NCBI GenBank assembly: GCA_037893245.1
Contig: JBAIAA010000608.1
Coordinates: 558,001 to 622,000 of the forward strand
DNA from: Crossaster papposus
Lineage: Eukaryota; Echinodermata; Asteroidea; Velatida; Solasteridae
Reading direction: 5' to 3'
Length of the DNA stretch: 64,000 nucleotides
The translations under genes and the position numbers were made by a program. The notes under the pieces are model-generated. The model had not been told where the DNA came from and ran no database searches. It worked only from the letters and a program-made list of their open reading frames with translations. Of the stretch, positions 3,241 through 64,000 are shown piece after piece (position 1 is the stretch's first letter; every line of letters starts with the position of its first letter).

Positions 3241-5154
3241 TCACACCCGCTGGAAGATCTTAACTGACATCAAATCAGCCACCACCAGGTCACCGCTCGG
3301 TGTGAATCTCAATCCTTGGGGAAAGGAAAGTCCGCGAGCTACCTGCCCGATGAAGACTCCCTCAGGGGAATAATGGTGCACTTCACCGTGGCCCACTGTA
3401 TCTTCTACGATAGAAACATAGAGGTCCCCAGCATTATCGCAGCACACGCCAGAGGGTCGTACAGGCTCCCCGTCAAACGATGTACTGACATTAAACACCT
3501 CATCTCCCGTATAGGTAGTGCAAATCAATTTTCTCTCGTTGAAGTTTGTGAAGATCAAGCGTTCCCTGATCCCGATGGCCAAATTGCCGTCAACCACGTC
3601 ATGTGAAATGGTTGTAAACAAGGACCCATCGAGTTGGTGGAGAGATATCACCTTTCTCCCGATGTCTGACACTGATATACGATTCTTCTTGTCTACAGCA
3701 ATACCACGCAGTTTACGCTCTGAATCAACGTCTGCATCATCCTGTGATGGTGCAAACTGGCGAATGAAGTTTAGACTGGAGTCAAACACCTTTACGTGCT
3801 GTTTATCAGTGACCAGAAGTAGGTCATCAGAGGTCACAGCTACTCCGCAAGGGTCATTCAACCTCTCCATATCAGCACGTGCTTTATACTCTCCACTGGG
3901 TGTAAACATTATCAGATTCTGTTTGATATAGTCAATAACGGCTATGTCACCATTGGTTAGACACGCGACGTCCGATGCATTCACACATTTTTCATATCCA
4001 AGCCCACACTCGCAAAACTCTTTTTTGAGCTGCCATTTTTCTTCCTGAAGTACTTCACCGAGGTCTGTGTCTGCCACGACGCCTCGACATTTGATCCCGA
4101 TAAATGAAAGCTCATGCTGCGCATTCTCCATTTTAAGCTCCCCCTGGAACTTCAAGTTGTGCATCACCTTTGGTTTGAGGTCCAAAAGCTCAAAGTCGTC
4201 AGCTTGCCGCATCAATTCGTCGACTGTCGCTACGAGTTGCTCGGCCTGCTCCATCTTGTCACGGTTGCTTTTCTGGACTTCCTCAAACTTCCTATCTCGT
4301 TCTTCTCCAATTTGTGTTACTTTGTCTCTGAGAAGGCGAGATTTGTCTCTGATCTTTGCAATCTCTTCTTCCTCTTTGGCGGTAATGTCTTTACAAGCTC
4401 GGGCCACCATGATTCTTAATCTGTTCCTGGTATGCGTCAGTGAAGCATCGGCGACTTTGAATTCCTTTCGCCTCCTGTCGAATCTTTGCAGAATCTCGCC
4501 GACGTCCTGACGGTACGATTGTATGGCATCTCCGACTTCTCTGTATTTATGCTCTGCTGTGCGATGATCTAACGCAGCACATTTCGCACAGGCCAAGGTC
4601 TTGCATGTCTCGCAGTAAAAACAGAGATCGTGGTTAGAATGCTTGTTGCATTGTTGAGTATCTTTCTTCCGGAGAGCCATCGGTGTTACATCGAGTCTGT
4701 TTTGTTCTTTTCCAACGATCTGATGGTTTCTCGTGGATTTCTTCCGCTTGTGGGCTTCTTGGCATTTGGCGCAGATGATTTTACAGCAGTCTAAGCACCT
4801 TGCGACGGCTTCTAAGCCCATTTTACATTCCTCACATGTTGGAGCATCTGCTGGTGCGTGTCCTAGCAACTGCTCCTGCTTGTTAAATTCATCAACGAGG
4901 GAACTCAGGAAAAAGCTGCTGGGTAGACCCTGCAATCCAGTGTCTGATACCGCAGTTGCCCGCCTGCAAACCGGGCAAGGAATCTTGTCTGCATTGGGTG
5001 GCTGACTGCCGATGAGCTCGTGCAGGCAGTTCAGGCAGAAGCTGTGCAGACAGTCCAGCAGCTTGGGATCGGTGAAACGACAGCAACAAATCGGGCATTC
5101 CAGGTGTCCTCGACTGATCGTACCCAGCATGGATTTGGCTGAAGCTTCCGCCAT
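3241..5154 (-). CDS. TRIM-NHL E3 ubiquitin ligase, gene 1
   Basis: 637 aa. RING C3HC4 with C20, C23, C35, H37, C40, C43, C60, C63; B-box 1 about 107-144; B-box 2 about 169-202; coiled coil about 205-325; a linker; six NHL-type propeller blades about 393-637. There is no filamin domain, so the layout is closest to TRIM56. The expected role is ubiquitin transfer by the RING, dimerisation by the coiled coil and ligand recognition by the propeller, in the cytosol. ATG at 5154 (MAEASAKS) was chosen because the upstream in-frame extension begins at GTG within a probable splice acceptor, and because gene 3 has no such extension. One uninterrupted coding exon. B-box 1 has the HKRKKSTRNH form shared with genes 4 and 6. 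The main alternative is another TRIM-NHL subfamily; the ligand is unknown. Confidence 0.95.
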   Translation of the reverse strand: MAEASAKSMLGTISRGHLECPICCCRFTDPKLLDCLHSFCLNCLHELIGSQPPNADKIPCPVCRRATAVSDTGLQGLPSSFFLSSLVDEFNKQEQLLGHAPADAPTCEECKMGLEAVARCLDCCKIICAKCQEAHKRKKSTRNHQIVGKEQNRLDVTPMALRKKDTQQCNKHSNHDLCFYCETCKTLACAKCAALDHRTAEHKYREVGDAIQSYRQDVGEILQRFDRRRKEFKVADASLTHTRNRLRIMVARACKDITAKEEEEIAKIRDKSRLLRDKVTQIGEERDRKFEEVQKSNRDKMEQAEQLVATVDELMRQADDFELLDLKPKVMHNLKFQGELKMENAQHELSFIGIKCRGVVADTDLGEVLQEEKWQLKKEFCECGLGYEKCVNASDVACLTNGDIAVIDYIKQNLIMFTPSGEYKARADMERLNDPCGVAVTSDDLLLVTDKQHVKVFDSSLNFIRQFAPSQDDADVDSERKLRGIAVDKKNRISVSDIGRKVISLHQLDGSLFTTISHDVVDGNLAIGIRERLIFTNFNERKLICTTYTGDEVFNVSTSFDGEPVRPSGVCCDNAGDLYVSIVEDTVGHGEVHHYSPEGVFIGQVARGLSFPQGLRFTPSGDLVVADLMSVKIFQRV

Positions 5155-5639
5155 CTTGTCTTGCCAAACCTGCACATAGGTGTTTTAATAATATCAATCA
5201 CCTAATTTAATTGAGATATTGCGGTCTAATCCTTCCGAGTGTACAGTAGTTATTTTCAGAAACTTTGAGCTCATATCAGAAGGACCGGAATACTTTTACC
5301 GATCGACAGGAAACCATGTGACCGTTTCAATCGCAAACTACTTCTCTACATGATTTTTGTAATTTAGGCACGATTTAAAGTGTTTTCGGATAAATACTTA
5401 CCGGTAGGAACTATCTTCTCCAATTCTGTCATAAAATACAATTAAAGGAGAAAAAAACAGCACTTTTTTTTCAAACGTCAAGAACCGAAACTGCCATATT
5501 ATTATGAAATACCTTAAGCAAGTGAATAATGGTCACAAGCATTTAAAACAAATCATGACGCCTGTATGCTGTCAGAGTTTTAAAAAGATTCTACGATGTT
5601 CGGCTGACCATCGTCGGAACAGCATCATCTTCCACATTT

Positions 5640-5745
5640 CCCCCGGTTACACACCCGTGAACATAGACCCCGGTTACACACTCGTGAACATACAGAGGGT
5701 ACCGCATTTCGCACCATGGGTACCGTATTTCGCACCATTTCCTCC
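5640..5745. repeat. Two short direct repeats in spacer X, unit 1
   Basis: A segment of about 28 bases starting CCCCGGTTACACAC and ending GTGAACATA occurs twice, followed by a second doublet of about 21 bases containing ATTTCGCACCAT. The equivalent place in unit 2 is occupied by different sequence next to the MITE at 13352-13922. Confidence 0.7.
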
Positions 5746-5845
5746 TAGTCTAGCTTTTCTAGCATCTGTAAACACAAAATTGCAGCAAACAAAAAGTGGC
5801 AAATGTTGTACATGTAAATCGCTTTAATGTCCTTATAGGGTGAAC

Positions 5846-7426: not shown

Positions 7427-7930
7427 ATGGAATATTGCTGCCACATTTGGGCTGGTGCTCTAGCTTGTCATTTGTCTCTGCTTTACAGAATTCAGAGACT
7501 AATTTCAAATGTTGTCGGAGAGGACTTAGCTTCATCTTTGCAACCCCTATCTCTCCGTCGTTCTGTAGCCTCTTTGAGCCTTTTTTTTTACAGTTATCAC
7601 TTTGGTAGGTGCTCCAGCTTGTCATTTGTCCCTGCTTGACATAATTCAGAGACGAATTTCAATTCTTGTCGGAGAGGACTTAGCTTCATCTTTGCAACCC
7701 CTATCTCTCCGTCGTTCTGTAGCCTCTTTGAGCCTTTTTTAAAAACAGATATCACTTTGGTAGTTGCTCCAACGGCCTTTCACTGGTCGTTCCACCTAGC
7801 CACACCTGGTCGTACCACTCGTCTCTCTGTCCATTACCATCCTCATACTGTAGTTGTCTCCAAAGCAAATACTTGGGAATACTCATCCAGCTTCTTCCCT
7901 CGTATTGCTGTGCTTGGGAATGCGCCGTAT
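7427..7930 (+). pseudogene. Fossil LINE reverse-transcriptase C-terminus, unit 1
   Basis: Plus-strand reading gives MEYCCHIWAGA, ACHLSLLYRIQRL, SLQPLSLRRSVASLSLF, YHFGRC, then (with frame changes) TTRLSVHYHPHTVVV and SSFFPRIAVLGN. These motifs are typical of the end of non-LTR retrotransposon ORF2 proteins of the jockey/CR1/L2-like group. The segment from the ACHLSLL motif to YHFGRC occurs twice (starts near 7467 and 7621, period about 154). No intact polymerase core is present. Confidence 0.7.
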
Positions 7931-10226: not shown

Positions 10227-10383
10227 TCACACATGTTGGAATATTTTGACTGAGAGTCTCCATGAGGTCTCCGCTTGTCGTGAATGTCAGTCCATAGGAA
10301 GAGTAAATCTGCAGGCCACCCGCCCGATGGAGACTCCCTCGGGTGAATAATGATGCACTTCACCGCTGCCGACTTCATCTTCT
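10227..10383 (-). pseudogene. Relic TRIM propeller tail, unit 2 (truncated)
   Basis: Minus-strand remnants of blades 5/6 (EVHHYSPEG-like sequence in a shifted frame, then the old C-terminus). Its upstream half has been lost at about 10383, where foreign sequence begins. It carries the one-base-short frameshift class shared with units 3, 4, 5, 7, 8 and 9. Confidence 0.75.
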
Positions 10384-10988: not shown

Positions 10989-12905
10989 TCACACCCGCTG
11001 GAAGATCTTAACTGACTGCCCATCAGCCACCACGAGGTCTCCGCTCGGTGTGAATGTCAATCTTTGGGGATAGTAAAGTCCGCGAGCTACCTGCCCGATA
11101 AAGACTCCCTCGGGTGAATAATGGTGCACTTCACCGCTGTTGAATTCTTCATCGATATAAACGGAAACATAGATGTCCCCAGCATCATCGCAGCACACGC
11201 CATAGGGTCGTACAGGCTTTCCGTTAAACGATGTACTGACATTGAACACCTCATCTCCCGTATAGGTAGTGCAAATCAATTTGCTCTCGTATAATTTTGT
11301 GAAGATCAAGCGTTCCCTAATCCCGATGGCCAAATAGACGTCAACTATGTCATGTGGAATGGTTGTAATCAAGGACCCATCCAGTTGGTGGAGAGATATC
11401 ACCTTTCTCCCTATGTCTAACACTGCTATCCGATTCTTCTTGTCCACAGCAATACCACGCAGTATACTCTCTGAATCAACGTCTGCATCATCATGTGATG
11501 GTGCAAACTGGCGAATGAAGTTCAGACTGGAGTCAAACACCTTTACGTGCTGTTCATCAATGACCAGAAGTAGATCATCAGAGGTCGCAGCTACTCCGCG
11601 AGGGTAATTCAACCTCTGCATATCAGCACTTGCTTTATACTCTCCACTGGGTGTAAACATCATCAGATCCTGTTTGATAAAGTCAATAACGGCTATGTCA
11701 CCATTGGCTAGACACGCGACGTCCACTGCATCGACACTTTCTTCATCTCCTGGCCCACACTCGCAAAACTCTTTTTTGAGCTGCCATTTTTCTTCCCGAA
11801 GTACTTCACCGAGGTCTGTGTCTGCTACGACACCTCGACATTTGACCCCGATAAATGAGAGCTCATGTTGCGCATTCTTCAATTTGAGCTTCCCCTGGAA
11901 CTCCAAGTTGTGCATAACCGTTGGTTTGAGGTCCAAAAGCTCAAAGTCGTCAGCTTGCCGCATCAAGTCGTCGACTGTCGCTACGATTTGCTCAGCCTGC
12001 TCCATCTTGTCACGGTTGCTTTTCTGGACTTCCTCAAACTTCCTATCTCGTTCTTCTCCAATTTGTGTTACTTTGTCTCTGAGAAGGCGAGATTTGTCTC
12101 TGATTTTTGCAATCTCTTCTTCCTCTTTGGCGGTAATGTCTTTACAAGCCCGGGCCACCATGATTCTTAATCTGTTCCTGGTATGCGTCAGTGAAGCATC
12201 GGCGACTTTGAATTCCTTTCGCCTCCTGTCGAATCTTTGCAGAATCTCATCGACGTCCTGACGGTACGATTGTATGGCATCTCCGACTTCTCTGTATTTA
12301 TGCTCTGCTGTGCGATGATCTAACGCAGCACATTTACCACACGCTAAGGTCTTGCATGTCTCGCAGTAAAAACAGAGATCCTGGTTAGTATGCTTGTTGC
12401 ATTGTGGAGTAACTTTCTTCCGGGAAGCCATCGGTGTTATATCGAGTCTGTTTTGTTCTTTTCCAATGATCTGATGGTGTCTCATGGAGTTCATGCGCTC
12501 GTGGGCTTCTTGGCATTTGGCGCAGATGGCTTTACAGCAGTCTAAGCACCTCGAGACGGCTTCTAAGCCCTCGTCACATTCCTCACATGTTGGAGCATCT
12601 GCTGGTGAGTGTCCTAGCAACTGCTCCTGCTTGTTGAATTCATCAACGAGGGAACTCAAGAAAAAACAGTTGGATAGACCCTGCAATCCAGTGTCTGGTA
12701 CCGCAGTTGCCCGCCTGCAAACCGGGCAAGGAATCTTGTCTGCATTGGGTGGCTGACTGCTGATGAGCTCGTCCAGGCAGTTCAGGCAGAAGCTGTGCAG
12801 ACAGTCCAGCAGCTTGGGATCGGTGAAACGACAGCAACAAATCGGGCATTCCAGGTGTCCTCGACTGATCGTACCCAGCATGGATTTGGCTGCAGCTTCC
12901 GCCAT
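10989..12905 (-). CDS. TRIM-NHL E3 ubiquitin ligase, gene 2
   Basis: 638 aa, MAEAAAKS start at 12905. Complete RING cysteine/histidine set, two B-boxes, coiled coil and six blades, with no break. B-box 1 has the HERMNSMRHH form shared with genes 5 and 8. Propeller features: CGPGDEESVDAV at the entrance to blade 1, RLNYPRGVAATSDD in blade 2 and IDEEFNSGE in the blade 5 loop (the last shared with gene 3). It follows the array pattern: leader intron upstream, relic tail downstream. The function is as inferred for the family; the substrate is unknown. Confidence 0.95.
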   Translation of the reverse strand: MAEAAAKSMLGTISRGHLECPICCCRFTDPKLLDCLHSFCLNCLDELISSQPPNADKIPCPVCRRATAVPDTGLQGLSNCFFLSSLVDEFNKQEQLLGHSPADAPTCEECDEGLEAVSRCLDCCKAICAKCQEAHERMNSMRHHQIIGKEQNRLDITPMASRKKVTPQCNKHTNQDLCFYCETCKTLACGKCAALDHRTAEHKYREVGDAIQSYRQDVDEILQRFDRRRKEFKVADASLTHTRNRLRIMVARACKDITAKEEEEIAKIRDKSRLLRDKVTQIGEERDRKFEEVQKSNRDKMEQAEQIVATVDDLMRQADDFELLDLKPTVMHNLEFQGKLKLKNAQHELSFIGVKCRGVVADTDLGEVLREEKWQLKKEFCECGPGDEESVDAVDVACLANGDIAVIDFIKQDLMMFTPSGEYKASADMQRLNYPRGVAATSDDLLLVIDEQHVKVFDSSLNFIRQFAPSHDDADVDSESILRGIAVDKKNRIAVLDIGRKVISLHQLDGSLITTIPHDIVDVYLAIGIRERLIFTKLYESKLICTTYTGDEVFNVSTSFNGKPVRPYGVCCDDAGDIYVSVYIDEEFNSGEVHHYSPEGVFIGQVARGLYYPQRLTFTPSGDLVVADGQSVKIFQRV

Positions 12906-19097: not shown

Positions 19098-19350
19098 TCA
19101 CACATGTTGGAAGATTTTGACTGAGACCTCATCGTCAGCCACCATGAGGCCTCCGCTTGTCGTGAATGTCAGTCCATAGGAGGAGTGAATCTGCAGGCCA
19201 CCCGCCCGATGGAGGCCCCTCCTCGGGTGAATAAAGATGCACTTCACCGCTGCCGACTTCATCTTCGTCGAGATAAACGCAAACATAGATGTCCCCAGCA
19301 TCATCGCAACACACGCCAGAGGGTTGTACATTACATTAAACACCTCATTG
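19098..19350 (-). pseudogene. Relic TRIM propeller tail, unit 3
   Basis: Blades 5/6 in broken frames ending VSVKIFQHV and a stop. It lacks about 20 bases near its upstream end that other relics have, has an extra change in the EVHHYSPEG region, and is one base short in the loop before blade 6. Confidence 0.8.
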
Positions 19351-20562: not shown

Positions 20563-22479
20563 TCACACCCTCTGGAAGATCTTTACTGACTTCCGATCAG
20601 CCGCCACGAGGTCTCCGCTCGGTGTGAATGTCAATCCTCGGGGATCATAAAGTCCGCGAGCTACCTGCCCGATGAAGACTCCTTCAGGTGAATAATGGTG
20701 CACTTCACCGCTGTTGAATTCTTCATCGATATCAACGGAAACATAGATGTCCCCAGAATCATCGCAACACACGCCATATGGTTGTACAGGCTTTCCGTTA
20801 AACAATGTACTGACATTGAACACCTCATCTCCCGTATAGGTAGTGCAAATCAATTTGCTCTTGTGATAGTTTGTGAAGATCAAGCGTTCCCCGATCCCGA
20901 TGGCCAAATTGTCGTCAACCATGTCATGTGGAATGGTTGTAATCAAGGACCCATCCAGTTGGTGGAGAGATATCACCTTTCTCCCGATGTCTAACACTGC
21001 TATCCGATTCTTCTTGTCTACAACAATATCCCACAGGTCACTCTCTGAATCAACGTCTCCATCACCATGTGATGGTGCAAACTGGCGAATGAAGTTTAGA
21101 CTGGAGTCAAACACATTTACTTGCTGTTTATCAGTGACCAGAAGTAGGTCATCAGAGGTTGCAGCTACTCCCTGAGGGCCATCCAAGCTCTTCATACCAG
21201 CACAGGCTATATACACCCCACTGGGTGTAAACATTGTCAGATTCTTTTTGTCATAGTCAATAGCGGCTATGTTACCATTGGTTAGACACGCGACGCCCGA
21301 TGCACCCTCAAATTCTTCATATCCCAGCCCACACTTGCAAAACTCTTTTTTGAGCTGCCATTTTTCTTCCTGAAGTACTTCACCGAGGTCTGTATCTGCC
21401 ACGACACCTCGATATTTGACCCCGATAAATGAGAGCTCATGCTGCGCATTCCCCAATGTGATCTCCCCCTGGAACTTTAAGTTATGCATCACCTTCGGTT
21501 TGAGGTCCAAAAGCTCAAAGTCGTCAGCTTGCCGTATCAAGTCGTCGACCGTCGCTACGATTTGCCCGGCCTGCTCCATATTGTCACGGTTGCTTTTCTG
21601 AACTTCCTTGAACGTCCTATCTCGTTCTTCTCCGATTTGTGTTACCTTGCCTCTGAGAAGGCGAGATTTGTCTCTGATCTTTGCAATCTCTTCTTCCTCT
21701 TTGGCAGTAATGTCTTTACAAGCCCGGGCCACCATGATTCTTAATCTGTTCCTGGCATGCGTCAGTGAAGCATCGGCGACCTTGAATTCCTTTCGCCTCC
21801 TGTCGAATCTTTGCAGAATCTCGCCGACGTCCTGACGGTATGATTGTATGGCATCTCCGACTTCTCTGTATTTATGCTCTGCTGTGCGATGATCTAACGC
21901 AGCACATTTCGCACACGCCAAGGTCTTGCATGTCTCGCAGTAAAAGCAGAGATCCTGGTTAGTATGCTTGTTGCATTGTGGAGTATCTTTCTTCCGGGGA
22001 GCTATCGGTGTTACATCGAGTCTGTTTTGTTCTTTTCCAATGATCCGATGGTTTCTCGTGGATTTCCTCCGCTTGTGGGCTTCTTGGCATTTGGCGCAGA
22101 TTATTTTACAGCAGTCTAAGCACCTCGAGACGGCTTCTAAGCCCTCGTTGCATTCCTCGCATGTTGGAGCATCTGCTGATGCATGCCCTAGCAACTGCTC
22201 CTGCTTGTTGAATTCATCAACGAGGGAACTCAGGAAAAAGCAGTTGGGTAAACCCTGCAATCCAGTGTCTGGTACCGCAGTTGCCCGCCTGCAAACCGGG
22301 CAAGGAATATTGTCTGCATTGGGTGGCTGACTGCCGATGAGCTCGTCCAGGCAGTTCAGGCAGAAGCTGTGCAGACAGTCCAGCAGTTTGGGATCGGTGA
22401 AACGACAGCAACAAATCGGGCATTCCAGGTGTCCTCGGCTGATCGTACCCAGCATGGATTTGGCTGCAGCTTCCGCCAT
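20563..22479 (-). CDS. TRIM-NHL E3 ubiquitin ligase, gene 3
   Basis: 638 aa, intact. ATG at 22479 (MAEAAAKS) is the only possible start, because the sequence before it differs from every other copy: the usual GTTTGGCAAGACAAG leader is replaced immediately upstream of the ATG. RING, B-box 1 (HKRRKSTRNH), B-box 2, coiled coil and six blades are complete. The propeller has FCKCGLGYEEFEG and SESDLWDIVV, shared with gene 8, and IDEEFNSGE, shared with gene 2, so it reads as a mosaic. Its 3' flank carries the ISL2EU-like element 57 bases past the stop, which may move or remove the usual polyadenylation site. Confidence 0.95.
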   Translation of the reverse strand: MAEAAAKSMLGTISRGHLECPICCCRFTDPKLLDCLHSFCLNCLDELIGSQPPNADNIPCPVCRRATAVPDTGLQGLPNCFFLSSLVDEFNKQEQLLGHASADAPTCEECNEGLEAVSRCLDCCKIICAKCQEAHKRRKSTRNHRIIGKEQNRLDVTPIAPRKKDTPQCNKHTNQDLCFYCETCKTLACAKCAALDHRTAEHKYREVGDAIQSYRQDVGEILQRFDRRRKEFKVADASLTHARNRLRIMVARACKDITAKEEEEIAKIRDKSRLLRGKVTQIGEERDRTFKEVQKSNRDNMEQAGQIVATVDDLIRQADDFELLDLKPKVMHNLKFQGEITLGNAQHELSFIGVKYRGVVADTDLGEVLQEEKWQLKKEFCKCGLGYEEFEGASGVACLTNGNIAAIDYDKKNLTMFTPSGVYIACAGMKSLDGPQGVAATSDDLLLVTDKQQVNVFDSSLNFIRQFAPSHGDGDVDSESDLWDIVVDKKNRIAVLDIGRKVISLHQLDGSLITTIPHDMVDDNLAIGIGERLIFTNYHKSKLICTTYTGDEVFNVSTLFNGKPVQPYGVCCDDSGDIYVSVDIDEEFNSGEVHHYSPEGVFIGQVARGLYDPRGLTFTPSGDLVAADRKSVKIFQRV

Positions 22480-25069: not shown

Positions 25070-25340
25070 TCACACATGTTGGAAGATTTTGACTGAGACC
25101 TCATCATCAGCCACCATGAGGCCTCCGCTTGTCGTGAATATCAGTCCATAGGAAGAGTGAATCTGCAGGCCACCCGCCCGATGGAGACTCCCTCGGGTGA
25201 ATAATGATGCACTTCACCGCTGCCAACTTCATCTTCTTCGAGATAAACGCAAACATAGATGTCCCCAGCATCATCGAAACACACGCCAGAGGGTTGTACA
25301 GGCTCCCCGTCAAACGATGTAATTACATTAAACACCTCAT
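25070..25340 (-). pseudogene. Relic TRIM propeller tail, unit 4
   Basis: FNVITSFDGEPVQPSG, YVCVYLEEDEVGSGE and VHHYSPEGVSIG, then a frameshift (one base short) and the old C-terminus VSVKIFQHV. Best-preserved example of the majority frameshift class. Confidence 0.85.
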
Positions 25341-25732
25341 TGGTGATGTTTTTTTCCTCAAGGAAGAGAATTGCGGTATGTGTTCAATTACCTTTTATAC
25401 ACTTTGAATTGTTCGTACTGGTATCACGAAAGTCGTATTTTTCGCGCCCCCCAGGGTCTCGAGATAGGTGTAGCCTAAATCGCTGCAACATCAAGATGGA
25501 CCGATGCCTCTGTTTATTGCTTAGTTATGACGAGTTGTTGCCATTCTGCACTGACTCGTACTCGCTGGGATATACAGAATCCTCAAACAATCGCAACTAA
25601 TGCTAGTCCCATTGTGCGCCTTGGCAAGGTGCCTATGCTAGAAAACGAGGCGGGATCGTTATGAACTGTCTGCCTATTCTGTAGTGTTTAGTGATTACAG
25701 ATGGCTAATGAAATCGCGCGACATTTTGTCGC
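25341..25732 (-). other. Block D: 3' flank of gene 4
   Basis: Conserved flank with post-stop hairpin abutting 25733 and AATAAA at 25513-25518 on the minus strand. About 30 bases near 25575 present in other units are missing. Confidence 0.5.
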
Positions 25733-27655
25733 TCACACCCGCTGGAAGATCTTAACTGACTGCAAATCAGCCACCACGAGGTCTTCGCTCGGTGTGAATG
25801 TCAATCCTTGGGGATCGTAAAGTCCGCGAGCTACCTGCCCGATGAAGACTCCCTCAGGTGAATAATGGTGCACTACACTGCAGCCGACTGAATCTTCTTC
25901 GATATCAACGCAAACATAGATGTCCCCAGCATCATCGCAACACACGCCATATGGCCATACAGGCTTCACGTTAAACGATGTACTGACATTAAACACCTCA
26001 TCTCCCGTATAGGTAGTGCAAATCAATTTCCTCTCGTATGATTTTGTGAAGATCAAGCGTTCCCTGATCCCGATGGCCAAATAGTAGCCAACCATGTCAT
26101 GTGGAATGGTTGTAATCAAGGACCCATCTAGTTGGTGGAGAGATATCACCTTTCTCCCGATGTCTAACACTGCTATACGATTATTCTTGTCCACAACAAT
26201 ACCACGCAGTTCACTCTCTGAATCCACGTCTGCATCATCCTGTGATGGTGCAAACTGGCGAATGTAGTTTAGACTGGAGTCAAACACTTTTACGTGCTGT
26301 TTATCAGTAACCAGAAGTAGGTCATCAGAGGTCACAGCTACTCCCCAAGGGTCATTCAACCTCTCCATATCAGCACGTGCTTTATACTCTCCACTGGGTG
26401 TAAACATTGTCAGATTCTGTTTGATATAGTCAATAACGGCTATGTCACCATTGGTTAGACACGCGACGCCCGATGCACCCTCAAATTCTTCATATTTCAG
26501 CCCACACTTGCAAAACTCTTTTTTGAGCTGCCATTTTTCTTCCTGAAGTACTTCACCGAGGTCTGTATCTGCCACGACACCTCGACATTTGTCCCCGATA
26601 AATGAAAGCTCATGCTGCGCATTCTCCAATTTAAGCTCCCCCTGGAACTTCAAGTTGTGCATCACCTTCGGTTTGAGGTCCAAAAGCTCAAAGTCGTCAG
26701 CTTGCCGCATCAATTCGTCGACTGTCGCTACGATTTGCTCGGCCTGCTCCATCTTGTCACGGTTGCTTTTCTGGACTTCCTTAAACTTCCCGTCTCGTTC
26801 TTCTCCAATTTGTGTTACTTTGTCTCTTAGAAGGCGAGATTTGTCTCTGATCTTTGCAATCTCTTCTTCCTCTTTGGAGGTAATGTCTTTACAAGCCCGG
26901 GCCACCATGATTCTTAATCTGTTCCTGGCATGCGTCAGTGAAGCATCGGCGACTTTGAATTCCTTTCGTCTCCTGTCGAATCTTTGCAGAATCTCGCCGA
27001 CGTCCTGACGGTACGATTGTATGGCATCTCCGACTTCTCTGTATTCATGCTCTGCTGTGCGATGATCTAACGCAGCACATTTTGCACACGCCAAGGTCTT
27101 GCATGTCTCGCAGTAAAAACAGAGATCGTGGTTAGAATGCTTGTTGCATTGTGGAGTATCTTTCTTCCGGGGAGCCATTGGTGTTACATCGAGTCTGTTT
27201 TGTTCTTTTCCAATGATCCGATGGTTTCTCGTGGATTTCTTCCGCTTGTGGGCTTTTTGGCATTTGCTGCAGATTATTTTACAGCAGTCTAAGCACCTCG
27301 AGACGGCTTCTAAACCCTTGCTGCATACCTCACATGTTGAAGCATCTGCTGGTGAGTGTCTAGCTAGCAACTGCTCCTGCTTGTTGAATTCATCAACGAG
27401 GGAACTCAAGAAAAAGCAGTTGGGTAGACCCTGCAATCCAGTGTCTGGTACCGCAGTGGGCCGCCTGCAAACCGGGCAAGGAATCTCGTCTGCATTGGGT
27501 GGCTGGCTGCCGATGAGCTCGTGCAGGCAGTTCAGGCAGAAGCTGTGCAGACAGTCCAGCAGCTTGGGATCGGTGAAACGACAGCAACAAATCGGGCATT
27601 CCAGGTGTCCTCGACTGATCGTACCCAGCATGGATTTGGCTGCAGCTTCCGCCAT
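25733..27655 (-). CDS. TRIM-NHL E3 ubiquitin ligase, gene 4
   Basis: 640 aa, ATG at 27655. It has the LLARHSPADA form (extra residue before B-box 1, as in genes 5 and 6) and HKRKKSTRNH in B-box 1. All zinc ligands are present, with coiled coil and six blades intact. The propeller joins FCKCGLKYEEFEG (like genes 3 and 8) to YIKQNLTMF and ADMERLNDP (like gene 1), and has IEEDSVGCS in the blade 5 loop. The base before the start context is changed (ACAATATGG instead of ACAAGATGG). Confidence 0.95.
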   Translation of the reverse strand: MAEAAAKSMLGTISRGHLECPICCCRFTDPKLLDCLHSFCLNCLHELIGSQPPNADEIPCPVCRRPTAVPDTGLQGLPNCFFLSSLVDEFNKQEQLLARHSPADASTCEVCSKGLEAVSRCLDCCKIICSKCQKAHKRKKSTRNHRIIGKEQNRLDVTPMAPRKKDTPQCNKHSNHDLCFYCETCKTLACAKCAALDHRTAEHEYREVGDAIQSYRQDVGEILQRFDRRRKEFKVADASLTHARNRLRIMVARACKDITSKEEEEIAKIRDKSRLLRDKVTQIGEERDGKFKEVQKSNRDKMEQAEQIVATVDELMRQADDFELLDLKPKVMHNLKFQGELKLENAQHELSFIGDKCRGVVADTDLGEVLQEEKWQLKKEFCKCGLKYEEFEGASGVACLTNGDIAVIDYIKQNLTMFTPSGEYKARADMERLNDPWGVAVTSDDLLLVTDKQHVKVFDSSLNYIRQFAPSQDDADVDSESELRGIVVDKNNRIAVLDIGRKVISLHQLDGSLITTIPHDMVGYYLAIGIRERLIFTKSYERKLICTTYTGDEVFNVSTSFNVKPVWPYGVCCDDAGDIYVCVDIEEDSVGCSVVHHYSPEGVFIGQVARGLYDPQGLTFTPSEDLVVADLQSVKIFQRV

Positions 27656-31856: not shown

Positions 31857-32085
31857 TCACACCTGTTGAAGATTTTGACTGAGACCTTATCATCAGCCTC
31901 CATGAGGCCTCCGCTTGTCGTGAATGTCAGTCCATAGGAAGAGTGAATCTGCAGGCCACCCACCCGATGGAGACTCCCTCGGGTGAATAATGATACACTT
32001 CACCGCTATCGACTTCATCTTTTTCGATATAAACGCAAATAAGATGTCCCCAGCATGATGGCAACACACGCCAGAGGGTTGATTT
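31857..32085 (-). pseudogene. Relic TRIM propeller tail, unit 5
   Basis: Degraded blades 5/6 with several further changes. The upstream end stops near 32085, about 45-50 bases short of other relics, where unrelated AT-rich sequence begins. Confidence 0.75.
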
Positions 32086-38605: not shown

Positions 38606-38880
38606 TCACACCTGTTGGAAGATTTTGACTGAGACCTCATCGTCAGCCACCACGAGGTCTCCGCTTGGCGTGAATGTCAGTCCATATGCCCCAGTAAAGT
38701 CTGCAGGCCACCTGCCCGATGAAGACTCCCTCGGGTGAATAATGATGCACTTCACCGCTGCCGACTTCATCTTCTTCGAAATAAACGCAAACATAGATGT
38801 CCCCAGCATCATCGCAACACACACCAGAGGGTTGTACAGGCTCCCCGTCAAACGATGTACTGACATTAAACACTTCATTG
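38606..38880 (-). pseudogene. Relic TRIM propeller tail, unit 6
   Basis: Best-preserved relic: FNVSTSFDGEPVQPSG, YVCVYFEEDEVGSGE, VHHYSPEGVFIGQVA, then a one-base excess and YGLTFTPSGDLVVADD to VSVKIFQQV. It shares the +1 class and the GGGGCATATGG sequence with unit 1 only. Confidence 0.88.
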
Positions 38881-50420: not shown

Positions 50421-51140
50421 CTAAGGACTCATATTCACTGACACATGTTGGAAGGTTTTGACTGAGACCTTATCATCAGCCACCATAAGGCCTCCGCTTG
50501 TCGTGAATGCCAGTCCATAGGAAGAGTGAATCTGCAGGCCACCCGCCCGATGGAGACTCTCTCGGGTGAATAATGATGCACCTCCCCGCTGCCGAGTGGA
50601 TCTTCTTCGATATGACGCAAACATAGATGTCCCCAGCATTATCGCAACACACGCCATAGGGTCGTACAGGCTCCCCGTTAAACGATGTACTGACATTAAA
50701 CACCTCATCTCCCGTATAGGTAGTGCAAATCAATTTGCTATCGTTGTAGTTTGTGAAGATCAAGCGTTCCCTGATCCCGATGGCCAAAAAGCCGTCAATC
50801 ATGTCATGTGGAATGGTTGTAATCAAGGACCCATCCAGTAGGTGGAGAGATATCACCATTCTCTTGATGTATAACACTGCTATACGATTCTTCTTGTCTA
50901 CAACAATACCACGCAGTTCACTCTCTGAATCAACGTCTGCATTATCCTGTGATGGTGTGAACCGGAGTCAAACACCTGTTCATGCTGTTCATCAGTGACC
51001 ATAAGTAGGTCATCAGAGGTCGCAGCTACTCCGCAAGGGCCATTCAACCTCTCCATACCAACACATGCTTTACACTCTCCACTGGGTGTAAACATCATCA
51101 GCTGCTGTTTGGTATTGTCAATAACGGCTATGCCACCGTC
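50421..51140 (-). pseudogene. Long TRIM pseudogene fragment, unit 7
   Basis: It covers blades 1-6 in pieces: GIAVID, MMFTPSGECKA, GVAATSDDLLMVTDEQH, then a deletion of the NFIRQFAPS region, then SLHLLDGSLITTIPHDM, FLAIGIRERLIFTNYN, TTYTGDEVFNVSTSFNGEPVR, then the relic-type frameshifted end. The old stop is also lost. The upstream part matches intact main-clade genes, while the tail has the relic frameshift, so it is a fusion of the two. It begins abruptly about 110 bases after the stop of gene 7. Confidence 0.85.
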
Positions 51141-51250
51141 GCTATGATTTGCTTTGGAAAACGAGGCTCAAATATTATAAATTGGCAATGTTAACGGAAG
51201 ACTGTCTAAATGCGTACGTCCGATGTTAGCTTATCATGATAATTTTTGGC

Positions 51251-53176
51251 TTACTCTCGACTGAAGATCTTGACTGAGACATCATCAGCCACCACGAGGT
51301 CTCCATGTTTAGTAAATGCCAAGCCCCTGGGACTTTTAAGTCCGCCTATCACACTCCCAATAAAAAAACCTTCACATGAGAAATGATGCACTTCACCGCC
51401 ATCGCCTTCTTCGAGACCGACAGAAACGTATATGTCACCATCATTATCGCAGCACACGGCGAAGGGTTGTGCAGGTTTTCCGCCAAACGATGTACTGACA
51501 TTGAACACCTCATCTCCCGTATAGGTAGTGCAAATCAACTTGTTCTCGTAGTAGTTTGTAAAGATCAAGCGTTTCTTGATCCCGATGGCCAAATTTCCCA
51601 AACCGACCATTTTATGTGAAATGGTTGTAATCAACGTACCATCCAGATGGTGGAGAGATATCAGTTTTCTCAATCTATCTGCCACTGCTATCCGATTCTT
51701 CTTATCCACTGCGATACTACTAAAGGAACAACATGCACCGCCATCTTCCTCATTCTGTAATGGTGCCAACTGGCGAGTGATTTCTAGACTGGAATCAAAC
51801 ACCTTGACATGCTTCATATCAGTGACCAGAAGTAAGTCGTCAGATGTGGCGGCTACTCCACGGGGCTTCTTCAACTTCTCCTGTCCGCCTCTGGATATAT
51901 ATTCTCCATTGGAAGTAAACATCATCAACTCCAATTTGCTATTGTCCAATACGGCAATGTCACCATTACTCAAACACGCGACGCCTGCAGCACAACTGAA
52001 TTTCTGAACTCTCGGCCCCTTCTTACCAAACTCTTGTTTCAATTGCCACTTTTTTTCCTGAGTTATTTCACCAAGGTCTGTATCTGCCACGACATCTTGA
52101 CATTTGATCCCGATGAAAGAGAGCTCGAACTGCGCATGCTCAAACCCCTCCTGGAACTTTTCCTCCTGGAACTCCAAGTTGTGCATCACCTTTGGTTTGA
52201 GGTCCAAAAGCTCAAAGTCGTCAGCTTGCCGCATCAAGTCGTCGACGGACGCTATGATTTGCTCAGCCTGCTCCATCTTGTCACGGTTGCTTTTCTGGAC
52301 TTCCTCAAACTTCCTATCTCGTTCTTCTCCAATTTGTGTTACTTTGTCTCTGAGAAGGCGAGATTTGTCTCTGATCTTTGCAATCTCTTCTTCCTCTTTG
52401 GCGGTAATGTCTTTACAAGCCCGGGCCACCATGATTGTTAATCGGTTCCTGGCATGCGTCAGTGAAGCATCGGCGACTTTGAATTCCTTTCGCCTCGCGT
52501 CAAATCTTTGCAGAATCTCGCCGACGCCCTGTCTGTACGATTGTATGGCATCTCCGACTTCTCTGTATTCATGCTCTGCTGTTCGATGGTCCAATGCAGC
52601 ACATTTCGCACACGCCAAGGTCTTGCATGTCTCGCAGTAAAAACAGAGATCCTGGTTAATGTGCTTGTTGCATTGTGGAGAATCTTTCTTCCGGGGAGCC
52701 ATCGGTGTTACATCGAGTCTGTTTTGTTCTTTTTCAGTGATCCGATGGTGTCTCGTTGATTTCGTTCGCTTGTGGGCTTCTTGGCATTTGGCGCAGATGA
52801 TTTTACAGCAGTCTAAGCACCTTGCGACGGCTTCTAAGCCCATGTTACATTCCTCACATGTTAGAGCATCTGCTGGTGCGTGTCCTAGCAACTGCTCCTG
52901 CTTGTTGAATTCATCAACAAGGGAACTCAAGAAAAAGCAGTTGGGTAGATTCTGCAATCCAGTGTCTGGTACCGCAGTGGCCCGCCTACAAACCGGGCAA
53001 GGAATCTTGTCTGCATTGGGTGGCTGGCTGCTGATGAGCTCGTTCAGGCAGTTCAGGCAGAAGCTGTGCAGACAGTCCAGTAGCTTAGGATTGGTGAAAC
53101 GACAGAAACAAATCGGGCATTCCAGGTGTCCTCGACTGATCGTACCCAGCATTGATTTGGCTGCAGCTTCCGCCAT
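51251..53176 (-). CDS. TRIM-NHL E3 ubiquitin ligase, gene 7 (chimeric, divergent propeller)
   Basis: 641 aa, ATG at 53176 (MAEAAAKS). Residues 1 to about 337 (RING with CPICFCRF, both B-boxes, coiled coil) differ only slightly from the other genes. From about residue 338 the sequence departs sharply: EEKFQEGFEHAQFELSF, then blades such as AAGVACLSNGDIAVLD, RGVAATSDDLLLVTDMKHV, SSIAVDKKNRIAVADRLRK and RGLAFTKHGDLVVADD, ending KIFSRE with a TAA stop instead of the usual TGA. The 3' flank lacks the hairpin and AATAAA. It is likely an E3 ligase with a different ligand. The sharp change near 52165 suggests a recombinant of two TRIM clades. Confidence 0.95.
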   Translation of the reverse strand: MAEAAAKSMLGTISRGHLECPICFCRFTNPKLLDCLHSFCLNCLNELISSQPPNADKIPCPVCRRATAVPDTGLQNLPNCFFLSSLVDEFNKQEQLLGHAPADALTCEECNMGLEAVARCLDCCKIICAKCQEAHKRTKSTRHHRITEKEQNRLDVTPMAPRKKDSPQCNKHINQDLCFYCETCKTLACAKCAALDHRTAEHEYREVGDAIQSYRQGVGEILQRFDARRKEFKVADASLTHARNRLTIMVARACKDITAKEEEEIAKIRDKSRLLRDKVTQIGEERDRKFEEVQKSNRDKMEQAEQIIASVDDLMRQADDFELLDLKPKVMHNLEFQEEKFQEGFEHAQFELSFIGIKCQDVVADTDLGEITQEKKWQLKQEFGKKGPRVQKFSCAAGVACLSNGDIAVLDNSKLELMMFTSNGEYISRGGQEKLKKPRGVAATSDDLLLVTDMKHVKVFDSSLEITRQLAPLQNEEDGGACCSFSSIAVDKKNRIAVADRLRKLISLHHLDGTLITTISHKMVGLGNLAIGIKKRLIFTNYYENKLICTTYTGDEVFNVSTSFGGKPAQPFAVCCDNDGDIYVSVGLEEGDGGEVHHFSCEGFFIGSVIGGLKSPRGLAFTKHGDLVVADDVSVKIFSRE

Positions 53177-56372: not shown

Positions 56373-56645
56373 TCACACCTGTTGGAAGATTTTGACAGAG
56401 ACCTTATCAGCCACCATGAGGCCTCCACTTGTCGTGAATGTCAGTCCATAGGAAGAGTGAATCTGCAGGCCACCCGCCCGATGGAGACTCCCTCAGGTGA
56501 ATAATGATGCACTTCACAGCTGCCGACTTCATCTTCTTCGAGATAAACGCAAACATAGATGTCCCTAGTATCATCGCAACACACACCAGAGGGTTGTACA
56601 GGCTCCCCGTCAAACGATGTAATTACATTAAACATCTCATTAGTG
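56373..56645 (-). pseudogene. Relic TRIM propeller tail, unit 8
   Basis: FNVITSFDGEPVQPSG, YVCVYLEEDEVGS, VHHYSPEGVSIG, with the majority frameshift (one base short) and an additional three-base loss near the end. Confidence 0.82.
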
Positions 56646-57378: not shown

Positions 57379-59292
57379 TTATACCCGCTGGAAGATCTTA
57401 ACTGACTCCCCATCAGCCACCACGAGGTCTCCGCTCGGTGTGAATGTCAATCCTTGGGGTTCGTAAAGTCCGCGAGCTACCTGCCCGATGAAGACTCCCT
57501 CTGGTGAATAATGGTGCACTTCACCGCGTTCACTTTCATAGATATAAACGCAAACATAGATGTCCCCAGCACTATCGCAACACACGCCAATGGGACGTAC
57601 AGGCTCGCCGTTAAACGATGTACTGACATTAAACACCTCATCTCCCGTATAGGTAGTGCAAATCAATTTGCTCTCGTCGTAGTTTGTGAAAATCAAGCGT
57701 TCCCTGCTCCCGATGGCCAAATAGTAGTCAACCATGTCATGTGGAATGGTTGTAATCAAGGACCCATCCAGTTGGTGGAGAGATATCACCTTTCTCCCGA
57801 TTTCTAACACTGCTATACGATTCTTCTTGTCTACAACAATATCCCACAGGTCACTCTCTGAATCGACGTCTGCATCACCCTGTGATGGTGCAAACTGGCG
57901 AATAAAGTTTAGACTGGAGTCAAACACGTTTACGTGCTGTTCATCAGTGACCAGAAGTAGATCATCAGAGGTCACAGCTACTCCGCAAGGGTCATTTAAC
58001 CTCTCCACATCAGCACGTGCTTTATACACCCCACTGGGTGTAAACATTGTCAGATTCTTTTTGTCATAGTCAATAACGGCTATGTTCCCATTGGTTAGAC
58101 ACGCGACGCCCGATGCACCCTCAAATTCTTCATATCCCAGCCCACACTTGCAAAACTCTTTTTTGAGCTGCCATTTTTCTTCCTGAAGTACTTCACCGAG
58201 GTCTGTATCTGCCACGACACCTCGACATTTGACCCCGATAAATGAAAGCTCATGCTGCGCATTCTCCAATTTAAGCTCCCCCTGGAACTTCAAGTTGTGC
58301 ATCACCTTCGGTTTGAGGTCCAAAAGCTCAAAGTCGTCAGCTTGCCGCATCAATTCGTCGACTGTCGCTACGATTTGCTCGGCCTGCTCCATCTTGTCAC
58401 GGTTGCTTCTCTGGATTTCCTCAAACTTCCTATCTCGTTCTTCCCCGATTTGTGTTACTTTGTCTCTTAGAAGGCGAGATTTGTCTCTGACCTTTGCAAT
58501 CTCCTCTTCCTCTTTGGCAGTAATGTCTTTACAAGCTCGGGCCACCATGATTCTCAACCTGTTCCTAGCATGCGTCAGTGAAGCATCGGCGACTTTGGAT
58601 TCGTTTTGCCTCTTGTCAAATCTTTGCAGAATCTCGCCGACGTCCTGACGGTACGATTGTATGGCATCTCCGACTTCTCTGTATTTATGCTCTGCTGTGC
58701 GATGATCTAACGCAGCACATTTCGCACACGCCAAGGTCTTGCATGTCTCGCAGTAAAAACAGAGATCGTGGTTAGAGTGCTTGTTGCATTGTGGAGTATC
58801 TTTCTTCTGGGGAGCCATCGGTGTTACATCGAGTCTGTTTTCTTCTTTTCCAATGATCCGATGGTGTCTCATGGAGTTAATGCGCTCGTGGGCTTCTTGG
58901 CATTTGGCGCAGATGATTTTACAGCAGTCTAAGCACCTCGAGACGGCTTCTAAGCCCTCATCACATTCCTCACATGTTGGAGCATCTGCTGGTGCGTGTC
59001 CTAGCAACTGCTCCTGCTTGTTAAATTCATCAACGAGGGAACTCAAGAAAAAGCTGCTGGGTAGACCCTGCAATCCAGTGTCTGGTACCGCAGTTGCCCG
59101 CCTGCAAACCGGGCAAGAAATCTTGTCTGCATTGGGTGGCTGGCTGCCGATGAGCTCGTCCAGGCAGTTCAGGCAGAAGCTGTGCAGACAGTCTAGCATC
59201 TTGGGATCGGTGAAACGACAGCAACAAATCGGGCATTCCAGGTGTCCCCGACTGATCGTACCCAGCATGGATTTGGCTGCAGCTTCCGCCAT
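57379..59292 (-). CDS. TRIM-NHL E3 ubiquitin ligase, gene 8
   Basis: 637 aa, ATG at 59292 (MAEAAAKS). Zinc ligands complete; B-box 1 of the HERINSMRHH type (genes 2 and 5). The coiled-coil segment KRQNESKVADASL partly matches genes 5 and 6. The propeller joins FCKCGLGYEEFEG and YDKKNLTMFTPSGVY (gene 3 type) to ERLNDPCGVAVTSDD (gene 1 type), SESDLWDIVV (gene 3 type) and a private blade 5 loop IYESERGE. It is a clear example of the mosaic pattern. Function as for the family, ligand unknown. Confidence 0.95.
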   Translation of the reverse strand: MAEAAAKSMLGTISRGHLECPICCCRFTDPKMLDCLHSFCLNCLDELIGSQPPNADKISCPVCRRATAVPDTGLQGLPSSFFLSSLVDEFNKQEQLLGHAPADAPTCEECDEGLEAVSRCLDCCKIICAKCQEAHERINSMRHHRIIGKEENRLDVTPMAPQKKDTPQCNKHSNHDLCFYCETCKTLACAKCAALDHRTAEHKYREVGDAIQSYRQDVGEILQRFDKRQNESKVADASLTHARNRLRIMVARACKDITAKEEEEIAKVRDKSRLLRDKVTQIGEERDRKFEEIQRSNRDKMEQAEQIVATVDELMRQADDFELLDLKPKVMHNLKFQGELKLENAQHELSFIGVKCRGVVADTDLGEVLQEEKWQLKKEFCKCGLGYEEFEGASGVACLTNGNIAVIDYDKKNLTMFTPSGVYKARADVERLNDPCGVAVTSDDLLLVTDEQHVNVFDSSLNFIRQFAPSQGDADVDSESDLWDIVVDKKNRIAVLEIGRKVISLHQLDGSLITTIPHDMVDYYLAIGSRERLIFTNYDESKLICTTYTGDEVFNVSTSFNGEPVRPIGVCCDSAGDIYVCVYIYESERGEVHHYSPEGVFIGQVARGLYEPQGLTFTPSGDLVVADGESVKIFQRV

Positions 59293-60411: not shown

Positions 60412-61236
60412 GGGGAGTCGCTCGGTCCCATATTTTGCTGGGTACATGCATTTTGGTTGTGCCCATTCACCTACCAAACTTCAGCCAGCGCATAGCACGA
60501 AGCCCATTTTATTTATTTTGTTCTAGATGCTCTGTGGTGCAATCTGAGGCGATATCTGACCACTTTCCTCTGAAGTGATGTTTCGGTTTATTTTGCAGTA
60601 AAATAAGGTTTCCTTAGCAACCCCCCCCCCTCCCCCCTCCCCACTCCCCCCTCCCCCTCCCCCTCCCCCTCCCCCCTCCCCCTCCCCCTCCCCCTCCTCT
60701 ATCCGCCATTGTAGTAGTTATGAGTATTGAGAAATAAGGCAAACACGCGTGTTAATTATGACGGGCCGTAACTCCGACGTCTCATAAGTCTCATAAATAT
60801 GAGGCGTCAGACTTACGAGAGGATCACATTATGATTACAATGCTGAAATTAAATTATTTACAGACCTGACAACAATATAAATTTGTAATTAACTTTTCAG
60901 CTAATTTACCACCTTCATTATGGTTTTTTTAGGCTGATGGTATTGTCGGATGCAGTTTGCAAGATCAATTCTTCTCACCGCCAATTGTAAATATCCTTAG
61001 CGTTGATTTGACTAAATGATCTTTTATGGACAGAGTGGGCAGCCTGACGGGACAACGGACTGCTTTAAATTTAGCTTTTAACTTCTAGTCTTTTTAATAG
61101 ATCTATGCGTGTATGTGTAACTCAACCCAACAAAATGAGTCACAAAATGAGTTGACAGCAATCAACGTTTTTGTCCAATTAATATCTGTATAATGTATTA
61201 AGGTTAACCCTTTCAATCCCACCCACTCACAGCTAA
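60412..61236. repeat. Spacer block A, unit 9
   Basis: Block A of the long C-tract type (60619-60697), like units 1 and 5, with about 50 bases missing near 60580. Non-coding. Confidence 0.8.
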
Positions 61237-62901: not shown

Positions 62902-63180
62902 TCACACATGTTGGAAGATTTTGACTGAGACCTTATCATCAGCCACCATGAGGCCTCCGCTTGGCGTGAATGTCAGTCCATAGGAAGAGTGAATCTGCAG
63001 GCCACCCGCCCGATGGAGACTCCGTCGAGTGAATAATGATGTACTTCATCGCTGCCGACTTCATCTTCTTCGAGATAAACGCAAACATAGATGTCCCCAG
63101 CATCATCGCAACACACGCCAGAGGGTCGTACAGGCTCCCCGTCAAACGATGTACTGACATTAAACACTTCATTGGTGTTT
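62902..63180 (-). pseudogene. Relic TRIM propeller tail, unit 9
   Basis: NEVFNVSTSFDGEPVRPSG, YVCVYLEEDEVGSDE and VHHYSLDGVSIG, then the majority frameshift and VSVKIFQHV. Upstream of NEV the homology to TRIM genes ends. Confidence 0.85.
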
Positions 63181-63675
63181 CTTCCTTCAAGGAAAGGAAA
63201 TTGCGGTATGTGTTCAATTACGCAGCATAGTTGTATCACTCACAACATTTTTAAACGATTTCAAATAATGTTTTTATCTGTTTTTGGTGTGTGTGCAATG
63301 TTAATTAACTGTTATACAATTATAAATGTTCGTACTGGTATCACGAAAGTCGTGTTTTTCGCGACCCACAGGGGCTCGAGATAGGTGTAGCCTAAATCGC
63401 TGCAACATCAAGATGGACCGATGCCTCTCTTTATTGTTCAATTATGACGAGTTGTTGCCATTCTGCACTGACTCATACTCGCTGGGATATCTTGACAGAG
63501 GAACATTCTATAATTATACAGAATCCTCAAACAAACGCAATTAAGGCTAGTCCAATTGTGTGTCTTGGCATGGTGCCTATGCTAGAAACGAGGCGGGATC
63601 GTTATGAACTGTCTGCCTATTCAGTAGTGTTTAGTGATTACAGATGGATAATGAAATCGCACGATATTTTGTCGC
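63181..63675 (-). other. Block D: 3' flank of gene 9
   Basis: Shared flank with AATAAA at 63430-63435 (minus strand). It carries the uninterrupted CTATTCAG site near 63617-63624 that corresponds to the transposon-filled site of unit 3. The post-stop hairpin has a mismatch (TGTCGC became TATCGT). Confidence 0.5.
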
Positions 63676-64000
63676 TCACACCCGCTGGAAGATCTTAACT
63701 GACTTCCCATCAGCCACCACGAGGTCACCGCTTGGCGTGAATGTCAATTTTTTGGGATTGAAAAGTCCGCGAGCTACCTGCCCGATAAAGACTCCTTTAG
63801 GTGAATAATGGTGCACTTCACCGCTGCCGAATTGATTATTGATATCAACGGAAACATAGATGTCCCCAGCATCATCGCAACACACGCCAGAGGGTCGTAC
63901 AGGCTCTCCGTCAAACGATGTACTGACAATAAACACCTCATCTCCCGTATAGGTAGTGCAAATCAATTTGCTATCACCGTAGTTTGTGAAGATCAAGCGT
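63676..64000 (-). CDS. TRIM-NHL E3 ubiquitin ligase, gene 9 (3' part only)
   Basis: The last ~108 residues of a ninth gene; the coding frame is open to the window edge and continues beyond it. It shows the end of blade 4 (LIFTNYGDSKLICTTYTGDEV), blade 5 with a private loop INNQFGSGE, and blade 6 to KIFQRV and the stop. It is in frame with the other intact genes and not with the relics, so it is probably functional. Confidence 0.9.
   Translation of the reverse strand, partial: RLIFTNYGDSKLICTTYTGDEVFIVSTSFDGEPVRPSGVCCDDAGDIYVSVDINNQFGSGEVHHYSPKGVFIGQVARGLFNPKKLTFTPSGDLVVADGKSVKIFQRV

Follow-up and report, generated by a model that had tools for sequence, protein, structure and literature searches.

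Several described systems resemble parts of the locus reported here. The finTRIMs of teleost fish form a multigene TRIM family in which positively selected sites lie mostly in loops of the C-terminal recognition domain; the positive class of codon model M8 covers 17.6% of sites in that domain, a recombination point falls inside it, and the signal outside it is weaker (PMC2657112). Human TRIM2, TRIM3, TRIM32, and TRIM71, and the NHL-like TRIM56, combine a RING, B-box, coiled-coil region, and NHL propeller, and their NHL domains are most divergent at the rim, the top opening, and the loops connecting the blades, the C terminus of TRIM2 lying at the bottom (PMC9634614). HERC5 and HERC6 are ligases with a beta-propeller that is under positive selection and helps decide antiviral activity (PMC6002735). 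Finally, rapid tandem expansions of very similar TRIM genes, suggested to be a response to external aggression, were described by Marin in 2012, in whose classification the TRIM2/3/32/45/56/71 group is Subfamily C and one Branchiostoma Subfamily C gene, with MATH domains, is a short intronless open reading frame (ORF) (PMC3503706). Here we analyze 64,000 nucleotides of Crossaster papposus DNA (GCA_037893245.1, contig JBAIAA010000608.1, positions 558,001-622,000 of the forward strand), a stretch we call the window, which holds a tandem array of intact genes predicted to encode TRIM-NHL E3 ubiquitin ligases. Positive selection has diversified codons in particular loops of the NHL propeller, stretches of sequence have been exchanged among the genes by recombination, and we think it rather probable that the array acts as a recognition family diversifying by selection and exchange.

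The window (43.8% G+C, 0 N) contains eight complete TRIM-NHL ORFs of 637-641 codons and the 3′ end only of a ninth at the right edge, all on the minus strand, with 5.2 to 11.9 kb between the stops of genes. Named g1 to g9 from left to right, they are g1 (3241..5154, 637 amino acid residues), g2 (10989..12905, 638), g3 (20563..22479, 638), g4 (25733..27655, 640), g5 (32500..34416, 638), g6 (39390..41312, 640), g7 (51251..53176, 641), g8 (57379..59292, 637), and the partial g9 (63676..64000), of which only the last 107 codons and the stop precede the window's end. The eight complete genes are supported by their ORFs, with Pfam matches for g1 (RING, B-box, NHL), g2, g7, and g8, comparison with solved structures for g2 and the propeller of g5, and 5′ flank comparison for g3; g7 was characterized also by synonymous divergence (dS), recombination, identity, and flank comparisons, and g9 by its 3′ part only. 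The initial annotation had called the locus a nine-unit array of near-identical genes; the units are indeed there, and at that place, but "near-identical" is too strong, because mean protein identity among the seven genes other than g7 is 95% in alignment columns 1-70, 88% in columns 71-215, 91% in columns 216-365, and 82% in the NHL part, and g7 departs from the common type with a propeller only about 63% identical to the others (RING 92%). In 7 of the 8 complete genes a tgtgcag, likely a 3′ splice site, lies 15 bases 5′ of the ATG, and each coding part therefore looks like a single exon after an untranslated exon. The exception is g3, where a different sequence precedes the ATG with its own ...ttttag (read by eye); similarity of its 5′ flank (from 22480) to other units ends about 3 bases before the ATG, displaced similar pieces reappear farther upstream, and g3 may thus have a different first exon and promoter.

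Membership in the TRIM-NHL family (class VII, or Subfamily C) follows from the RING, B-box, and NHL matches. Domain scans covered four of the eight complete ORFs (g1, g2, g7, and g8), and in all four Pfam found RING (models above cut-off), zf-B_box (two stretches each), and NHL (PF01436, above cut-off); with NCBIfam, two ORFs gave propeller matches that were weak and far under the cut-off. Cysteines and histidines at positions 20, 23, 35, 37, 40, 43, 60, and 63 are present in all eight complete ORFs and are probably the zinc ligands of the RING. Residues 20-292 of g2 align with TRIM28 structures, in keeping with B-boxes followed by a probable coiled coil in a RING, B-box, and coiled-coil (RBCC) part, and the propeller profile matches structures of TRIM2 and TRIM3 most closely, then TRIM71, Thin, and Brat. 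The closest solved structures to g2 as a whole are human TRIM3 and TRIM2; a TRIM56 RING structure is one of 38 matches, and the link to TRIM56 drawn in the initial annotation is a possible one. TRIM2, TRIM3, and TRIM71 carry a filamin domain between coiled coil and NHL; no filamin match was found at E 0.1 in the four ORFs scanned, so that in these the RBCC part is followed directly by NHL, unlike in the TRIM2/TRIM3/TRIM71 subtype. (A filamin-NHL construct has been shown for zebrafish LIN41; PMC5908797.) Nor was any B30.2 match found at E 0.1 in the same four ORFs, which places them outside the finTRIMs. A search of a viral contig collection with the array alignment gave 29 pattern matches, none of them confirmed.

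Differences among the genes are concentrated in propeller loops. Every loop string quoted in the initial annotation is present in the window genes: before blade 1, GLGYEKCVN in g1, GPGDEESVDAV in g2, GLKYEEFEG in g4, GPGDEQFLN in g5, and GPGGEMFSY in g6; and in blade 5, VEDTVGHGE in g1, IDEEFNSGE in both g2 and g3, IEEDSVGCS in g4, IDEYECGE in g5, IEEYSVGCGE in g6, IYESERGE in g8, and INNQFGSGE in g9. With six NHL blades counted and their strands assigned by hand from the NHL repeat register, the share of variable columns is 89% in b-c loops, 55% in d-a loops, 41% in b strands, 39% in a strands, 16% in d strands, 6% in c strands, and 5% in c-d loops. Mean all-site divergence over the 21 pairs of the seven common genes is 0.184 in d-a/b-c loop codons but 0.061 in the rest of the propeller, the latter equal to the value for columns 1-365, so the concentration of differences in loops, noticed in the initial annotation, is borne out in numbers. 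In g5, for example, the hypervariable d-a loop before blade 1 (CECGPGDEQFLNA; 33235..33273, minus strand, alignment columns 385-397) contains selected sites under M8 at columns 393, 395, and 396, and the hypervariable b-c loop of blade 5 (YIDEYECGE; 32641..32667, minus strand) contains them at columns 588 and 594-596.

Codon models were fitted by maximum likelihood with our own program (GY94, F3x4, relative branch lengths fixed after the M0 fit, sites identified by naive empirical Bayes), and the main set comprised the propellers of seven genes (g1-g6 and g8, with g7 left out). On this set the single-omega fit (M0; omega being dN/dS) is 1.05, and models with a positively selected class fit far better, twice the log-likelihood difference (2dlnL) being 74.0 for M1a/M2a, 75.9 for M7/M8, and 73.5 for M8a/M8; the positive class of M8 has an omega of 7.15 on 12.5% of sites. 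The mean near 1 is thus a mixture of constrained and driven sites, and not variation spread evenly over the propeller at near-neutral rates. By the Nei-Gojobori method, again without g7, omega is 0.28 in columns 1-70, 0.43 in columns 71-210, 0.25 in columns 211-365, and 0.83 in NHL, and counting in 30-codon windows gives a peak of 3.1 ahead of blade 1 and another of 1.9 in the B-box stretch. Outside the propeller, M8a/M8 tests (uncorrected) give p values of 0.26 for columns 1-105 (RING), 0.5 for columns 216-365 (coiled coil), and 0.063 for columns 1-365 together. RING and coiled coil are therefore held by purifying selection, as the initial annotation had expected of the RING; and the eight intact ORFs, together with omega values of 0.25-0.28 in these two parts, rule out a reading of the genes as pseudogenes.

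Recombination is known to inflate codon tests of selection, and it is real in this array: the pairwise homoplasy index (PHI) test rejects its absence (p 0.001 with and without g7), identity tracts are significant by global permutation at 0.05 in 5 of 28 pairs (g1-g7, g3-g8, g2-g7, g4-g8, and g1-g5), and approximately unbiased (AU) tests of foreign trees yield 20 rejections among 25 of 30 tests. Segments have thus recombined between genes, and a signal produced falsely by this process, or by an assembly that mixed haplotypes into mosaics, has to be weighed. Because recombination can mislead such tests, we used segment trees, simulations of a mosaic null, and leave-one-out runs. Each third of the propeller, fitted on its own tree, retains the signal (M8a/M8 p 1.1e-6, 0.0014, and 1.2e-6); 60 neutral sets simulated on three segment trees and analyzed on one tree never exceed a 2dlnL of 11.7; and leaving out each of the seven genes in turn gives values of 53.6-78.7, so that no single odd gene lies behind the signal. 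With g7 added the statistic is 79.1, and with g9 added (last part) 30.1. The segment-wise fits and the mosaic null together rule out recombination alone as the source; moreover, recombination moves variants and would not create an excess of amino acid changes, and we regard an artefact of either kind as very improbable.

The selected codons are clustered. A posterior above 0.8 was reached by 19 codons. Fifteen of these are in d-a or b-c loops, which span 81 of the 265 columns (p 8.8e-6), the remaining four are 1-2 columns away from such a loop, and none falls in the 43 columns of a-b and c-d loops; when loop borders are jittered by one residue in 2000 trials, the a-b/c-d count stays at zero and the median p is 3e-5. 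The d-a and b-c loops of such propellers lie on a common face, and on the repeat register they would do so here as well, so that the sites with dN/dS above 1 would sit, as the initial annotation had proposed they might, in loops of one propeller face. We conclude that the d-a/b-c loop codons of the NHL propeller are driven apart by positive selection. Loop selection within the recognition domain that is robust to recombination is common to this array and the finTRIMs; the array works like finTRIM diversification but is not finTRIM, the C-terminal domain being B30.2 there and an NHL propeller here (PMC2657112). It likewise differs from the HERC proteins, which are HECT ligases with a seven-bladed RCC1-like propeller and many selected codons in blade 1 and the spacer, and of which HERC5 acts on HIV-1 by a mechanism described as ligase-independent, the accessible text describing no tandem array (PMC6002735); from the human NHL domains, which are only 19-41% similar in sequence among themselves, except for the approximately 82% identity of TRIM2 and TRIM3 (PMC9634614); and from the expansions described by Marin, where, in the accessible text, NHL propellers are not analyzed for site-level selection, for faces, or for conversion (PMC3503706). 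Among the open-licence papers of PubMed Central (PMC) that our searches listed, none was seen to describe positive selection acting on a TRIM NHL propeller or its face.

Two kinds of neighboring DNA provide yardsticks for the loops. The first is the non-coding flank: over the 21 pairs of seven genes, counting aligning stretches only and ignoring gaps, mean divergence is 0.077 in flanks, 0.097 in the NHL part, and 0.184 in d-a/b-c loops; in all pairs but g2-g5 and g3-g8 (19 of 21), the NHL part is more divergent than the flank. The second is a frame-broken copy of the last NHL part downstream of all nine genes, found by tblastn and, except after g3, by blastn, at 2549..2810 after g1 (approximately residues 551-638), 10230..10382 after g2, 19101..19329 after g3, 25073..25341 after g4, 31862..32081 after g5, 38609..38879 after g6, 50451..51143 after g7, 56376..56641 after g8, and 62905..63173 after g9, all on the minus strand. 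Eight of the nine span roughly residues 551-638 or less; the g7 remnant, starting about 108 bp after the stop and followed also in divergence windows, spans about 400-638. Where aligned in register, the downstream flanks of the units, remnants included, are roughly 83-96% identical, with the g3 flank shifted by about 800 bases, so the remnant was probably in the unit before the array grew. The stretch after the remnant in the g1, g4, g5, g6, and g9 flanks resembles the gene's first downstream bases (about 70-76% identity), as would be expected had the remnant retained a 3′ flank of its own.

In six units (1, 3, 4, 5, 6, and 8; the g2 remnant was left out as too short), mean divergence at the blade-5 loop is 0.35 in genes versus 0.079 in remnants, and elsewhere in the fragment the genes diverge less than the remnants (0.087 versus 0.155, the remnant figure being partly inflated by poor alignment, judged by eye, of the first g3 and g5 remnant columns); variable columns number 25 of 39 in gene loops and 7 of 39 in remnant loops, and 45 of 229 and 82 of 229 in the rest (Fisher p 1.8e-5). 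With the g7 and g9 remnants added, making eight, remnant loop divergence is 0.11-0.12. The remnants are possible donors of loops to the genes, but most carry nearly one loop type, which the g4 and g6 loops resemble in length and sequence (by eye). The blade-5 loop is thus not simply mutable, and a local mutation hotspot there is ruled out. The same comparisons bear on relaxed constraint, under which redundant copies would drift and surface loops tolerate change. Tolerated change usually falls in loops, and the mean propeller omega is near 1, both of which suit that explanation, but it is strongly contradicted by the following: i) a class with omega of about 7 fits far better than omega 1; ii) in d-a/b-c loops, divergence at codon positions 1, 2, and 3 is 0.239, 0.171, and 0.142, positions 1 and 2 changing more than 3, and in the rest of the propeller the order is reversed (0.043, 0.061, and 0.079); iii) d-a/b-c loops diverge more than the flank in 21 of 21 pairs; iv) a-b/c-d loops are less variable than d-a/b-c loops (10 of 43 versus 54 of 81 columns); and v) the broken remnants are far less variable than the genes at the blade-5 loop. 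Mere drift is accordingly a most improbable account of the locus.

Exchange is most conspicuous in g7, a chimera of RBCC part and propeller, whose dS against the other seven complete genes is 0.62-0.75 in NHL but 0.155-0.228 in the N-terminal part, the switch from family-type RBCC to divergent propeller lying near alignment columns 330-345. Its upstream flank differs from those of g4, g5, and g6 by 14-16% without gaps, near its N-terminal dS. Downstream of the stop, some 110 bases without a match in any other unit are followed by a broken propeller of family type: over residues 402-550 this remnant differs by 9-12% from the seven common genes (which differ by 6-12% among themselves) but by 25% from g7 itself. 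It remains gene-type up to about residue 583 and is remnant-type beyond, where it is 23-27% from the common genes and, in the last windows, 3-5% from the nearest remnant; genes and remnants have therefore recombined as well. These junctions are most simply read as the arrival of a divergent propeller end in a family gene, whose former propeller stayed behind in broken form. The opposite reading, that g7 is an old paralogue whose RBCC half was overwritten, was set aside, since an upstream flank about as divergent as the N-terminal dS fits an incoming propeller better. Neither the g7 chimera nor the downstream NHL remnants have a counterpart in the accessible text on finTRIMs (PMC2657112).

Other features of the window can be listed briefly. 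A minisatellite of 144-bp units (44110-47133, 21 copies, 99% matches) lies between g6 and g7 and is either very young or kept alike. Tandem repeats of 154-155 bp occur at 15916-16701 (5 copies) and 7454-7771 (2.1 copies); by eye their frames look like the 3′ end of the reverse transcriptase of a long interspersed nuclear element (LINE), and two stretches from the 15916-16701 array gave no Pfam match. An ORF with a THAP domain (PF05485, E 4e-12; 20031-20429, minus strand), about 130 bp downstream of the g3 stop, is perhaps derived from a transposon. Pyrimidine tracts of CCCCTC type are found at three sites in the array (260-339, 29521-29644, and 60621-60697), and ARAGORN found no tRNA in the window.

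What the selected face binds can be approached through charge. The net charge of the d-a/b-c loops is +4 in g7 and ranges from -6 to -13 in the other seven complete genes. All eight also have acidic a-b/c-d loops, and taken as a whole every propeller is acidic except that of g7, which is neutral. Since the propellers of the common genes are net acidic, loop face included, a protein target is likelier than RNA. This bears on the alternative that the propellers recognize host RNAs, as Brat and LIN41 do, and that the paralogues have split target mRNAs of development or the germline among them with no immune role. Brat and LIN41 are established to bind RNA with the upper surface of the propeller, and the selected loops here would lie on the matching face, but LIN41, Brat, and Mei-P26 bind RNA with a basic face (PMC5908797, PMC9070667) and the d-a/b-c loops of 7 of the 8 genes are net acidic; an omega near 7 in recent tandem copies would also be unusual for fixed host targets. 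We consider division of RNA targets quite unlikely.

We favor instead the reading of the array as a diversifying recognition family. Each protein would dimerize via its coiled coil and bind a partner with the d-a/b-c loop face; the dimerized RBCC part would then ubiquitinate the bound partner or signal from it. Partners would be many or fast-changing, most simply proteins of pathogens or other parasites, and the animal would maintain several ligases that share an effector half but differ in their grip. Defense against pathogens is the leading candidate reason, by analogy with the finTRIMs and HERC5/6. A different arms race or a role in self-recognition (conflict with transposons or in the germline, gamete recognition, or allorecognition) would be expected to produce the same pattern of diversifying selection and exchange, and the present analyses do not separate it from pathogen defense; TRIMs with a diversified C-terminal domain, however, are best known from antiviral defense (finTRIM and TRIM5alpha; PMC2657112), and we judge conflict or self-recognition of these kinds unlikely.

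Several points weigh against this account or limit it. The codon figures come from our own program and naive empirical Bayes. In segment-wise fits, d-a/b-c loops account for 23 of 31 sites and an a-b loop for one, and a-b loops are themselves fairly variable (39% of columns); the worst p among the 2000 border jitters is 0.01, and equally good results come from 7 of 265 circular shifts when the zero shift is counted. The face depends on a hand-set NHL repeat register and general propeller topology; whole propellers and a-b/c-d loops are acidic as well, and the argument from charge thus applies beyond the loop face; and flank divergence is biased low, as only alignable stretches were counted. 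Finally, the B-box stretch (columns 106-215) gives a weak signal (p 0.013, uncorrected), as do columns 1-335 with all eight genes (M8a/M8 p 0.013, uncorrected). Selection is thus not confined to the propeller, and the effector half is not wholly constant: the initial annotation had paired a constant RING, B-box, and coiled coil with a variable recognition face, and loop selection on one face, purifying selection in RING and coiled coil, and intact ORFs all uphold that picture, but the B-box stretch is not constant. In zebrafish finTRIM group A, by contrast, the extra selected sites lie just upstream of the RING (PMC2657112).

A bolder possibility, which we put forward tentatively and hold to be rather doubtful, is that the array is a germline repertoire generator, in which a fairly constant RBCC part is joined to propeller faces diversified in three ways: by point selection in d-a and b-c loops, by short exchanged tracts that swap loops from gene to gene, and by replacement of a whole propeller as in g7, where the family-type propeller that was displaced would be the broken copy behind the gene. 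If so, it would be, in an animal, a ubiquitin-ligase counterpart of hypervariable receptor families, with the NHL propeller as a swappable grip. TRIM NHL propellers are known mainly as developmental binders of RNA or protein. Should the recognition reading be correct, it would show that fast recognition linked to ubiquitination can be carried out by the surface of an NHL fold, as it is by that of B30.2; and about 19 codons are singled out for direct testing, with the broken downstream propellers as a built-in control.

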